30,732 nt of DNA from a virus, in IMG/VR virus record IMGVR_UViG_3300042482_000320, positions 1 through 30,732 of that record. One strand, 5' to 3'. The notes below the pieces were generated by a model. The model was not told where the DNA came from and ran no database searches. It saw only the letters and a list, made by a program, of their open reading frames with translations. Shown here one piece after another: positions 19,505 to 23,413 of this stretch. The first letter of the stretch is position 1. Each line of letters begins with the position of its first letter. A program made the position numbers and the translations under genes.

Positions 19505-20671
19505 CTACCTTATTGCATACTTTCCGTAGTTTGGTCTGGCCAACTTATCGTATAACGCATATCTTACCCCATCTATGGTATGATTGAAAGCGTCAACTGG
19601 AATATTTAGGATGTTCCCATTTTTGTCTTCGGACCATTTGTAATTTTTAAATTCCTTAATCATATTCAAGCTATCGACTGTAATATTAATTCTGTAACGC
19701 TTCATCATATCTATTCCGATGTTTACGCTTCCTTGACCTTTGGTTGCCGGTTTAATATTCCATCCCATCCGGTAAAGTTCTTCAATTGATTTTGGTTCTG
19801 AACTATCGGCATAAATTTCTTGTCTTCCGATGTTAAATTGTTTCAAATACGTGTCGATGTCTCGGTTTGTCAAACCGGTCTTGTATAAGTATTCCTTTAA
19901 AAATAAATCATCGCCTTGTTTCCAAACCCCTACCAAAGTTGTTGCGTCATTCGAGTAACCAAAGTCCATTCCAAAAGCCAAAAAGGTTGCAGTTTCTGGG
20001 ATGTCAAAACAATCTACAAACCTAAAAATAATTGATTTACTGGTTCCTATTTCACCCAGTCCGTAAATCTTCCAATAATTATCATCGATGTATTTCAGTC
20101 TTTCGATTTCCTTAATTGTGTCTTGGTCAAGAAACGGATTATCTAGGTAAGTTGTTATGAAGAAATCGACGTCTTCCCTTGGCTTAATCCTATCGTAAAT
20201 AAAATGGAATTCATCACTTGGGTTATAATCCATTACGACCCTTCCAGTCGTTCTGAAAATTAATTGTTGCCAGTCTTCGTAATAAATTTCATTCGCTTCG
20301 TTGATGTAAAGTAAGTCACGTTTCCGGCCCCTTAATTTTTGTGGCTGGTCCAAGGATATAAATTCAACCAGATTTCCATTTAGCAAATATTCCGAATTGG
20401 ATTTGTTGTGAAGTTCGACATTATATAAATCGTAGGTCTTTAGAATTTCAAAAAAATCACGCATACAACTGGACCTTAATGCCGGATAGGTTTTTCTACA
20501 AATCGTTATGGTAAGGCCTACATTTTCTGTCGTGTATTTGAATATAATCCACATCAGTATATTGTAAGTCTTACCACTTCTAGTTCCACCTTGTTCAATA
20601 ACTATTCTTTTTTTGCTATCGACTAGGTGTTCGAAAACTATGTTAGTCTGTATTTTTTTCTTTTCTGCCAA
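19505..20671 (-). CDS. terL: terminase large subunit (ATPase and nuclease)
   Basis: The packaging motor, about 388 aa, PBSX/Terminase_3-like. Walker A is GGTRSGKT (about 28-35), Walker B with the catalytic Glu is LLYINEANE (about 120-128), and the coupling motif region follows (TTGRVVMDYNPS). The C-terminal RNase H-fold nuclease shows FGMDFGYSND (about 233-242), IYADSSEPKSIEEL (about 287-300) and NHTIDGVRYALYD near the end, each with the expected acidic residue. It overlaps the small-subunit gene by 29 nt and ends at a strong terminator. The headful or cohesive-end mode cannot be decided from the sequence; a circularly permuted assembly leans to headful. Confidence 0.95.
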   Translation of the reverse strand: MAEKKKIQTNIVFEHLVDSKKRIVIEQGGTRSGKTYNILMWIIFKYTTENVGLTITICRKTYPALRSSCMRDFFEILKTYDLYNVELHNKSNSEYLLNGNLVEFISLDQPQKLRGRKRDLLYINEANEIYYEDWQQLIFRTTGRVVMDYNPSDEFHFIYDRIKPREDVDFFITTYLDNPFLDQDTIKEIERLKYIDDNYWKIYGLGEIGTSKSIIFRFVDCFDIPETATFLAFGMDFGYSNDATTLVGVWKQGDDLFLKEYLYKTGLTNRDIDTYLKQFNIGRQEIYADSSEPKSIEELYRMGWNIKPATKGQGSVNIGIDMMKRYRINITVDSLNMIKEFKNYKWSEDKNGNILNIPVDAFNHTIDGVRYALYDKLARPNYGKYAIR

Positions 20672-21014
20672 TTATTTCGATTTCAAATTGTTTTAGTTCG
20701 TGTCGGTTATCAGTTTCCATAAACTGCATAGATAACTTTTTACGTTCGTCATCATCGCATAAAACCTTAAACGCAGATATTTGTAAAGTTGGGTTATCGG
20801 ATGAAATCCATTTGTTTAACATATACCCCACGGCCTTGGTTTTGTTCAATGTAATGGCTTCTTTTATGCTTTCCGATTTTTCCAATTCCAAGTTATAGAA
20901 CTGGGAAGATTTCAAATCTAAATAGTGTGTAAAAATATGCTGAATTTTCATTATCTTATTCCTTTCGATAACTTCGATTATTTCAGCTTCGTGTTGTTGT
21001 TTTGTTTTTGCCAT
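20643..21014 (-). CDS. terS: putative terminase small subunit
   Basis: A 123-aa all-helical, charged protein ahead of terL with a 29-nt overlap. The N-terminal half (AEIIEVIERNKIMKIQHIFTHY) could form the DNA-binding helix bundle, and KTKAVGYMLNKWISSDNPTLQISAFKVLCDDDERKKLSMQFME resembles the oligomerisation part of small terminases from Bacteroidota phages. It would recognise the packaging site and load TerL. It is placed immediately after the modification cassette (1-nt gap), suggesting co-expression of DNA modification and packaging. Family assignment is mostly positional. Confidence 0.65.
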   Translation of the reverse strand: MAKTKQQHEAEIIEVIERNKIMKIQHIFTHYLDLKSSQFYNLELEKSESIKEAITLNKTKAVGYMLNKWISSDNPTLQISAFKVLCDDDERKKLSMQFMETDNRHELKQFEIEIIGRKEKNTD

Positions 21015-21015
21015 C

Positions 21016-21783
21016 TTATATTCCTTTGAATGCTTTTAGTGGATAGAAAACAAGTGAATTTCTATATCCCCCATCGAAGGTTGGAATAATTGGCGTAACC
21101 CCATGCATATTTCGCCAAGCTGGATAAACTAGAATACTATTATCTTTTTGACCAATGGTTGCGTTATAATCCGGTATATGTAAGTCACCACCTTTTGAAT
21201 TATGCTTCTTACAAATAATTACATTTACGGCCCCTTGGATGTTTCCGGCATCCCTATGAATTGGCGCAGATATATTATAGTTAGAAATCGAACTTGTGAA
21301 CAGATTTCCAAACTTCCATTTGTCCGGTACATCCTTGAAAAGTTCCATTTGTTGTTCGTATTGATTTGGTATTATTTCCTTTATAAGTTGTTCGCTTTCT
21401 TTTGCCAAAAGCAACATCGCTTTGATAAAGGTCTGGGAAGATTTTACAGAATGTACGCTTGAAATACTTGCGTATGGCCTTCTCATTAATGGCTTTGGTG
21501 GAATGGAACCTAATATGGTCGAATATTGTAATACTTCCTTTTCTGTATTGTGTAATCCACTTGACCGTTTCATTTCTGTTTTTGGCACGTTTTTGCTTCT
21601 CAATTCTGAATTGGCCAAGTCTGCCAACTTACACATTTTTTCTGGCATTTGAGTTAGGTAAAATCCAATCGGCTCACCATCGAAATAAAAAATACTGTCT
21701 TCGGTTACATTTGGCTCAATGTACGGACAATTGTCACCAATTTTTACGTTATGGTCAATCTGTTTTAAATCTATTCTTTTCAT
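21016..21783 (-). CDS. TET/JBP-like 2OG-Fe(II) DNA dioxygenase
   Basis: The 255-aa protein shows the double-stranded beta-helix pattern of Fe(II)/2-oxoglutarate oxygenases: HRDAGN with His176 and Asp178 as iron ligands, GGDLHIPDYNATIG (about 198-211), NMHGVTPI with His227 as third ligand and GGYRNSLVFYPL with Arg241 to bind 2-oxoglutarate. The HRDAGN spacing, and the upstream YSTILGSIPPKPLMRRPYASISSVH stretch (about 87-111), match what I remember of phage TET/JBP-family proteins, which oxidise 5-methylpyrimidines in DNA. It follows the FkbM-like gene by 3 nt and precedes terS by 1 nt. No C5-cytosine methyltransferase is visible, so the substrate (thymine, host-made 5mC or something else) is open. 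Confidence 0.7.
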   Translation of the reverse strand: MKRIDLKQIDHNVKIGDNCPYIEPNVTEDSIFYFDGEPIGFYLTQMPEKMCKLADLANSELRSKNVPKTEMKRSSGLHNTEKEVLQYSTILGSIPPKPLMRRPYASISSVHSVKSSQTFIKAMLLLAKESEQLIKEIIPNQYEQQMELFKDVPDKWKFGNLFTSSISNYNISAPIHRDAGNIQGAVNVIICKKHNSKGGDLHIPDYNATIGQKDNSILVYPAWRNMHGVTPIIPTFDGGYRNSLVFYPLKAFKGI

Positions 21784-21786
21784 AAT

Positions 21787-22476
21787 TTAATTTTTATAAC
21801 AAAAAATGTTTGTACATGCTCTAGCTATATTTCTCGGTAAGCTTTCATCCGGTAGTTTTAAGATACTGCCATCTTCAATAATCCTTTTGTACATATTTTT
21901 TTGTCTGGTTAGTAGTATTCGTAATCTATTTATATTTCGGTCAATATCCAAACTCCATTCGTAAACCAGTTTATCAAAAATTTTATTTGAATTTTCTAGG
22001 ATAAGCATTTCGGCCCCTTCTATATCCATTTTGCAACAATCGAAGTTTTTAGCTTCTTCATCAAAATTTATACAAGGAACCTTAATACCTTTGTTATTCC
22101 ATTTCTTTACTATTGAGTTTCGCCAAACTGCATTATTATTACCGATGAATAAAACGGCTTCTTTTCTGTCGTTATGAACTAATGCCACTTGTTTTATTTC
22201 GGCTTTGAAATTATTTAGTTCTAAATTTTTTTTAATCATCTGGCAGTTGTTTGGGTCCGGTTCGTAAATTGTTACCTTCCCACCGAGTGCGCAAACTAAT
22301 AAAGCAAACGCACCCACATTTCCACCGCAATCCATCCAATTGTCATTTGGGTCAATTGTCATTCCTTTTCGTAAATAAACCTTATTCCCTAAAACTTCTT
22401 CAAAGGTTTTTAAATCGCTATAACCTTCTCGATAATAAAATTTGATGCCGTTTATTTTACCTTCTGAAATCTTCAT
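21787..22476 (-). CDS. FkbM-like SAM-dependent methyltransferase
   Basis: A 229-aa class I methyltransferase. Motif I is DCGGNVGAF (49-57), the acidic ribose-binding residue lies in YEPDP (71-75), and KMDIEGAE (149-156) is the FkbM family hallmark. FkbM enzymes are mostly O-methyltransferases acting on sugars or hydroxyls. Flanked by a ParB-like protein (ATGA overlap) and a TET/JBP-like dioxygenase, the economical hypothesis is methylation of the hydroxyl made by the dioxygenase on a DNA base. It lacks the NPPY or PC-motif of known DNA base methyltransferases, which fits an O-methyl rather than an N- or C5-methyl product. No direct evidence shows the substrate. Confidence 0.75.
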   Translation of the reverse strand: MKISEGKINGIKFYYREGYSDLKTFEEVLGNKVYLRKGMTIDPNDNWMDCGGNVGAFALLVCALGGKVTIYEPDPNNCQMIKKNLELNNFKAEIKQVALVHNDRKEAVLFIGNNNAVWRNSIVKKWNNKGIKVPCINFDEEAKNFDCCKMDIEGAEMLILENSNKIFDKLVYEWSLDIDRNINRLRILLTRQKNMYKRIIEDGSILKLPDESLPRNIARACTNIFCYKN

Positions 22477-23045
22477 AGTTTTTCCTTTTCTGATTTTAGG
22501 AATTCAATTATCATTCCACCAATGTACGCATCCCTTTCACGCCAGAATTTAACCAGTTCAGAAGCTTCTTGATAGTGTTCTGCTTCAAATTCGATTTGTA
22601 TCGCTTTCTTTACACCATTGGTCATATCTTCTAATTGGTCTGAAACATCATCATCGTTCAAGATATCGTAATCGATGTCCGGTTGTGTTTGCCAGACATC
22701 CAAACCCCAGTCAGTAATTTCAGCTTCATCCCATTCGTTTGCCAAAATATTCCAATCCCAATCACCACCGGAAATATTATCTTTTATCAAAAATTCCCTT
22801 TGCTTTTCTTCTGTCAAATCTGCTATTATAATCGGTATTTCTTTTAATCCAGCTTCAACACTAGCTTTATAACGCATATTCCCACCTAGTATTATCATAT
22901 CTTTATTCACGACAATGGGCCGGATTTCTAACATTTCTGGAAAGTCTTTTATTGACCTTACTAACTTTTTAAATTTGTCATCCTTGATTAACCTTGGATT
23001 ATTCGGATTTAGTTTTACGCTGGATATTTTTACTATTTTATTCAT
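22473..23045 (-). CDS. ParB-like (ParB/Srx fold) protein
   Basis: The 190-aa protein begins with a ParB N-terminal domain: KISSVKLNPNNPRLIKDDKF, IRPIVVNKDMIILGGNMRYKA (GGNMRYKA about 54-61 in place of the GxRR box), IPIIIADLTEEKQREFLIKDN and GDWDWNILANEWD. It lacks the ParB HTH and centromere-binding parts and there is no ParA, so it is not a partition protein. Such solo ParB domains often occur beside DNA methylases in phages and act as CTPase or nuclease-like modules. It is coupled by ATGA to the DnaA-like gene above and the FkbM gene below. A targeting or quality-control role in the modification cassette is inferred. Confidence 0.75.
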   Translation of the reverse strand: MNKIVKISSVKLNPNNPRLIKDDKFKKLVRSIKDFPEMLEIRPIVVNKDMIILGGNMRYKASVEAGLKEIPIIIADLTEEKQREFLIKDNISGGDWDWNILANEWDEAEITDWGLDVWQTQPDIDYDILNDDDVSDQLEDMTNGVKKAIQIEFEAEHYQEASELVKFWRERDAYIGGMIIEFLKSEKEKL

Positions 23046-23413
23046 AAGTTACTGTTTACGCATTGTTCTATTATTTTTATTTGATTATCGTCTAGTTGAT
23101 TAATCGCTTTAATCAAAGCAAACCTTGGCGAAATTAGGCCTAATATATTGTCTCTAATATAAGATAAATGTGGCTTTCGTGAAATTACTTCGTCATACAT
23201 CCTTTGCGAATGCAAAACAGTCGCATGGTCGTAACTTCTGCCATTTTCAATTATCGTGTCTCGGACTTCGAACAAAGTCATTTTGAAATCGTTTCTCAAA
23301 ATATAACAGTATAAGCTTCGTGCGTCAACTACTTCTTGGGTTCTTCTTTTGTCGTATACGTTTATTCTTGTGGCTTTCTTTATTTCTAACGCTACAAATT
23401 CGGGTTTTGTCAT
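23042..23413 (-). CDS. stand-alone DnaA domain-IV DNA-binding protein
   Basis: The 123-aa protein is essentially only the C-terminal DNA-binding domain of DnaA: VVDARSLYCYILRNDFKMTLFEVRDTI followed by GRSYDHATVLHSQRMYDEV, where DHATVLH is the DnaA box-recognition signature (DHTTVLHA in bacteria). There is no AAA+ ATPase domain. It could bind DnaA boxes at the phage origin, or mask host boxes. It sits between the FEN-type exonuclease and the ParB-like gene with ATGA overlaps on both sides. Two perfect 9-base DnaA boxes occur in the genome (726-734 and 12186-12194). Confidence 0.8.
   Translation of the reverse strand: MTKPEFVALEIKKATRINVYDKRRTQEVVDARSLYCYILRNDFKMTLFEVRDTIIENGRSYDHATVLHSQRMYDEVISRKPHLSYIRDNILGLISPRFALIKAINQLDDNQIKIIEQCVNSNL

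Follow-up and report, generated by a model that had tools for sequence, protein, structure and literature searches.

The window analyzed here, by which we mean a whole stretch of 30,732 bases from an IMG/VR record, is a linear metagenomic sequence, possibly a fragment, and carries a three-gene cassette encoding a solo ParB-domain protein, an FkbM-family methyltransferase and a TET/JBP-family dioxygenase, with the terminase genes next door. We propose that this cassette would constitute a post-replicative DNA hypermodification system, in which the dioxygenase and then the methyltransferase, targeted by the ParB-domain protein, may lead to 5-methoxymethyluracil. We lean toward this route without great confidence; every chemical step, the role of the ParB protein, the protection of phage DNA and the timing are inferred. 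What has been shown is that chance cannot account for the cassette: the TET gene occurs in hundreds of viral contigs, gene order is kept, and the ParB, FkbM and TET genes are under purifying selection, with median pairwise dN/dS of 0.10-0.13.

Layout of the cassette and identity of its genes

All five genes lie on the minus strand. The first cassette gene encodes the solo ParB_N-domain protein (22473..23045) and is followed by the FkbM-type SAM methyltransferase in what we call the exchangeable slot (21787..22476; phrog_28597), the TET/JBP 2OG-Fe(II) dioxygenase (21016..21783), a small TerS-like ORF at the position of the terminase small subunit (20643..21014) and TerL, the terminase large subunit (19505..20671; PF04466, PF17288 and phrog_2). 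The ParB and FkbM genes share a 4-nt overlap (ATGA), the FkbM and TET genes are separated by 3 nt, the TET gene and the TerS-like ORF by 1 nt, and the TerS-like ORF overlaps TerL. A first-pass annotation, made from the sequence alone, had claimed the coordinates of the three cassette genes, the overlap, both short gaps and the adjoining terminase, all of which held. It had also claimed terS directly after the TET gene; the gene position held, and the TerS label is inferred only from position and conservation before terL without a supporting family match, the sole match being a weak one to phrog_3258, of unknown function (E 0.002). On the other side of the cassette, an ORF at 23042-23413 overlaps the start of the ParB gene by 4 nt and shows a sub-threshold match to a DnaA C-terminal HTH (23.5 of 31.5 bits). 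Two other genes of the window, one SSB-like (DUF3127) and one of ERF type, give a weak hint that the phage host, which is unknown, may belong to the Bacteroidota.

The dioxygenase is a member of the TET/JBP family, as shown by profile, PDB profile search, predicted fold and ligands, while its oxidation of a 5-methylpyrimidine is inferred. The gene passes the cut-off of PF12851 Tet_JBP (40.7 vs. 34.9 bits), relatives in the MED4 phages and actinophages scoring 26.8-32.2, under the cut-off, and a profile built from 30 TET relatives matches human TET2 in the PDB (E 3e-4). The AlphaFold2 model (pLDDT 87.7) has human TET2 as its best PDB match (Z 18.5 over 236 residues), followed by NgTET1 at Z 17.8, vs. 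about 14.8 and less for FTO and AlkB; Foldseek and VIA likewise placed TET2 and NgTET1 structures on top (Z 17.5-18.5), ahead of FTO and AlkB. An alignment of 30 rows, mycobacterial and rhodococcal phage relatives among them, shows no variation at the iron and 2OG ligands H176, D178, H227 and R241, and the HxD..H..R motif is present in all 127 distinct TET relatives. The HRD...H...R ligands claimed by the first-pass annotation accordingly held, as did its assignment of the three genes to the ParB, FkbM and TET/JBP families (by Pfam, PDB profile search and comparison of the TET fold); a match of the dioxygenase to a non-nucleic-acid family, which it had named as a refuting outcome, did not occur, the matches being to PF12851 and TET2.

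Proteins of this TET/JBP type carry the label queuine tRNA-ribosyltransferase in RefSeq and PHROG 6059, as seen in L081:12350-13132, L082:14934-15716, L084:813-1730 and relatives. The TET fold and ligands rule this label out for the dioxygenase, and it is likely a misannotation that has spread over many phage records.

The slot gene is shown to encode an FkbM-family methyltransferase, whereas SAM-dependent O-methylation is inferred. It scores 55.1 bits against PF05050 (cut-off 22.7), the PDB profile match of its product is 2py6, 'Methyltransferase FkbM' (E 0.003), and the pattern of DxGxNxG and DIEG motifs is found in 70 of 71 FkbM copies, the remaining copy differing only in having FEPD in place of YEPD. 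The model is a Rossmann methyltransferase (pLDDT 87). Because its fold neighbors are generic Rossmann methyltransferases only (Trm5, RlmLK and RumA, of RNA and small-molecule types), the substrate cannot be read from the fold, and the FkbM family in general methylates varied substrates.

The first gene scores 41.5 bits against PF02195 (cut-off 26.3), and almost every locus with sufficient sequence has a relative of it upstream of the slot. No ParA family member was found among the ORFs put through family scans, which were not aimed at ParA, and a PADLOC scan of the cassette yielded nothing informative. We surmise that the ParB-domain protein is likely a DNA-binding or targeting partner of the enzymes, a role that is inferred.

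Conserved gene order and the exchangeable slot

The order of ParB, slot gene, TET and terminase is conserved across viral contigs. Searching viral contigs with the TET of the window returned 279 relatives, 80 of which were kept, and an alignment-based scan placed TET in at least 589 viral contigs. Of 80 loci in which the sequence extends far enough, 77 have TerL some 0.3-1.5 kb downstream. The slot could be resolved in 78 loci collected through TET alone: 33 have FkbM there, 32 a TAGT-like glycosyltransferase and the other 13 a kinase set. Four of the five glycosyltransferase representatives, plus a further group scanned separately, pass the cut-off of PF20691 TAGT (TET-Associated Glycosyltransferase); a sixth glycosyltransferase-like group (L057) had no Pfam match. 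Among the proteins encoded near slot kinases, two score above the cut-off of PF18724 ADDT (amino acid:DNA transferase); some of the 13 kinase sets include ADDT, and one of the 33 FkbM loci also has kinase and ADDT genes. The slot classes are not strictly exclusive, since a single operon at L001:2655-6765 (the same contig as L089) has FkbM, ADDT and a P-loop kinase alongside TET, together with an FAD-oxidase-like protein and a ParB that diverges at its N-terminus.

Two further slot contents were noted by eye. The slot protein of L213:4096-4998 and L216:1790-2692, 301 residues long, resembles a GT-B glycosyltransferase, and its L213 copy is without a Pfam match; at L038:4483-5496 and L020:4514-5530 a 338-residue protein beside the slot kinase looks like a thymine pyrophosphorylase and has no Pfam match.

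Exchange of the slot gene is shown by the TET tree, on which slot class switches at least 27 times among 127 distinct TETs, and sister TETs often differ in their slot (e.g., TAGT in L033 vs. FkbM in L138). Slot labels are nonetheless clustered on this tree vs. shuffles, none of the 500 shuffles being as low, either for FkbM or for TAGT. Internal support of the tree is modest, and FkbM loci are over-sampled, one scan having been FkbM-driven; if only the strongly supported branches are counted, FkbM still needs 8 changes and TAGT 13. That same FkbM-driven scan, which was independent of TET, yielded 68 distinct FkbM copies followed by 900 bases or more of sequence, and TET lies beside every one of them. 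In 22 FkbM-bearing records that were searched, no TAGT was found above the cut-off, a single record having a weak match at another position; as a control, this search found all four TAGT records, three above the cut-off and one below. Because the other slot families are expected to act on a DNA hydroxymethyl group, FkbM probably O-methylates that group, and we infer that its role is most likely that of the other slot enzymes, i.e., tailoring of the hydroxymethyl group. The first-pass annotation had claimed a hydroxymethyl base followed by O-methylation; slot swaps with TAGT, or with kinase and ADDT, support this claim, with the chemistry still inferred.

Substrate and proposed pathway

The choice between thymine and a host-made 5-methylcytosine (5mC) had been left undecided by the first-pass annotation, and a cultured phage-host pair favors thymine. 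The ParB-FkbM-TET trio is present in two Prochlorococcus phages, MED4-117 and MED4-184, and P-HS2 shows the same matches as MED4-184 at the same positions. The absence of a PF00145 C5-methyltransferase is shown for both MED4-117 and MED4-184 and for the genome of their host, Prochlorococcus MED4, in which the best partial match reached 14.4 bits (E 0.019). This genome (G077) was recognized by published primer positions (1,457,449, 1,141,081, 537,779 and 1,464,652; PMC7852597), all of which matched, and a search of it with the TET of the window returned no match. Since no source of 5mC is known for the MED4 infection, TET would have no known 5-methylpyrimidine other than thymine to act on there, and we consider thymine the best substrate candidate, favored by the MED4 pair without an enzyme assay. 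The argument is drawn from relatives with 56% TET identity to the window, whose own host is unknown. The window itself has no C5-methyltransferase, as the first-pass annotation had claimed for the phage, a statement that holds only for what may be a fragment. No thymidylate synthase homologue (PF00303) was found in any of 25 records, MED4-117 and MED4-184 included. Overall, PF00145 is present in 6 of 48 related records, and it is possible that some relatives use 5mC. The idea that FkbM itself might be the missing C5-methyltransferase was ruled out: loci with TAGT or kinases lack FkbM, most records lack PF00145, and TET is still kept.

We postulate the following sequence of events. Acting on thymine in the DNA of the phage, the TET/JBP enzyme would hydroxylate its 5-methyl group, giving 5-hydroxymethyluracil; the FkbM enzyme would then move the methyl group of SAM onto that hydroxyl, yielding 5-methoxymethyluracil in DNA; and the ParB-domain protein would, most likely, bind DNA and direct both enzymes. 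The product would protect phage DNA against nucleases of the host, and the neighboring terminase genes suggest that the system may act late. The first-pass annotation had proposed that the modified base is made at packaging time and guards against restriction; both points remain inferences from location and from the known functions of DNA hypermodification. Against this two-step reading, there is no biochemistry, FkbM substrates are varied, and the FkbM of L001/L089 may possibly act on another group. A bolder reading, which in our judgment could as easily fail as hold, is that a whole group including culturable Prochlorococcus phages contains 5-methoxymethyluracil, formed from thymine on the DNA polymer by the TET/JBP and FkbM enzymes, with the cap set by swapping the one gene that lies between ParB and TET.

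In a cytosine version of the pathway, TET would oxidize 5mC made by the host or the phage and FkbM would convert it to 5-methoxymethylcytosine. In its favor, PF00145 is found in the 6 related records mentioned above and in 43 of 147 Prochlorococcus genomes, and the phage TETs studied so far are reported to act on 5mC beside C5-methyltransferases (Burke et al. 2021; cited in PMC12730594). However, 42 of the 48 records are without PF00145, as are MED4-117, MED4-184 and their host, and the ADDT and kinase family of the slot or the actinophage operons belong, as far as is known, to thymidine hypermodification; we regard this version as unlikely. Somewhat less likely again is the proposal that FkbM methylates another group, e.g., the carboxylate of 5-carboxyuracil formed by further oxidation, or a sugar or amino adduct carried by the base. 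TET enzymes can oxidize past the hydroxymethyl stage, and FkbM does sit with ADDT, oxidase and kinase in L001/L089, both of which would favor it; on the other hand, FkbM is the sole slot gene in the remaining FkbM loci, the 22 FkbM records searched lack a TAGT above the cut-off, and the slot alternatives to FkbM need a hydroxymethyl group. Least plausible, and in our view very unlikely, is that FkbM is an unrelated accessory gene, e.g., a methyltransferase for the host surface or a metabolite, that entered the operon by chance. FkbM-type genes do occur in other settings in some phages, which speaks for this view: Rhodococcus phage Trina has a distant relative, and the 6 kb or so around it include no annotated TET. 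Against it, all 68 copies of this FkbM subfamily adjoin TET, and the FkbM position is otherwise filled by DNA tailoring enzymes.

Relation to known systems

TET-based hypermodification with tailoring enzymes is known already; as far as we have searched the literature, what is new is FkbM as the tailoring enzyme. That search found no report linking TET, JBP, FkbM and phage (Iyer et al. 2013 and Burke et al. 2021 lay outside it), and the eLife MetaGPA paper makes no mention of FkbM. To our knowledge, 5-methoxymethyluracil is not known as a natural DNA base. If our reading is true, O-methylation would join the known phage ways of decorating hydroxymethyl bases, and the product would be, as far as we found, an undescribed natural DNA base; the claim is directly testable in the cultured P-HS2/MED4 pair. 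Thymine, rather than 5mC, as the substrate of a large group of phage TETs would bear on the origin of TET/JBP enzymes, the frequent slot swaps between ParB and TET suggest that the identity of the cap is under changing selection, and the enzymes could serve sequencing chemistry.

The proposed pathway resembles base J synthesis in kinetoplastids, which relies on JBP1/2 and a glucosyltransferase, in that thymine is hydroxylated in DNA and the hydroxyl is then modified, but base J is capped with glucose, whereas a methyl cap is predicted here. Thymidine hypermodification of the dUMP hydroxymethylase type (SPO1, M6 and ViI) likewise tailors a 5-hydroxymethyluracil intermediate on DNA; in the window type, without a thymidylate synthase homologue, this intermediate would instead arise on DNA by TET. 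The cytosine system of Burke et al. 2021 also places a TET/JBP enzyme within a DNA modification cluster but reportedly pairs it with a C5-methyltransferase, which the window, MED4-117 and MED4-184 lack, thymine being the best candidate here.

Closest in arrangement are operons of actinophages (CaiB, Tonitrus and Serendipitous), which have a ParB-like gene first, a homologous TET, tailoring genes and then terminase; they differ in tailoring by glycosyltransferase, kinase or amino acid:DNA transferase in place of FkbM, and their TETs are only 24-29% identical to that of the window. Actinophage ParB-TET/JBP operons are reportedly covered in the prediction work of Iyer et al. 2013, and the CaiB genome announcement shows the same arrangement, described as base/nucleotide modification genes (PMC9302106). 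Rhodococcus phage Tonitrus has the order ParB, TET, ADDT, Ploopntkinase3 and terminase, interrupted by small genes. In Mycobacterium phage Serendipitous the order is a gene that aligns with ParB yet has no Pfam match, TET, TAGT, a PIG-L deacetylase-like gene, Ploopntkinase3 and terminase. Its gp4 (L084:2504-3091) is the PIG-L (GlcNAc de-N-acetylase) protein adjoining TAGT, which raises the possibility that a DNA-linked sugar is deacetylated in this phage.
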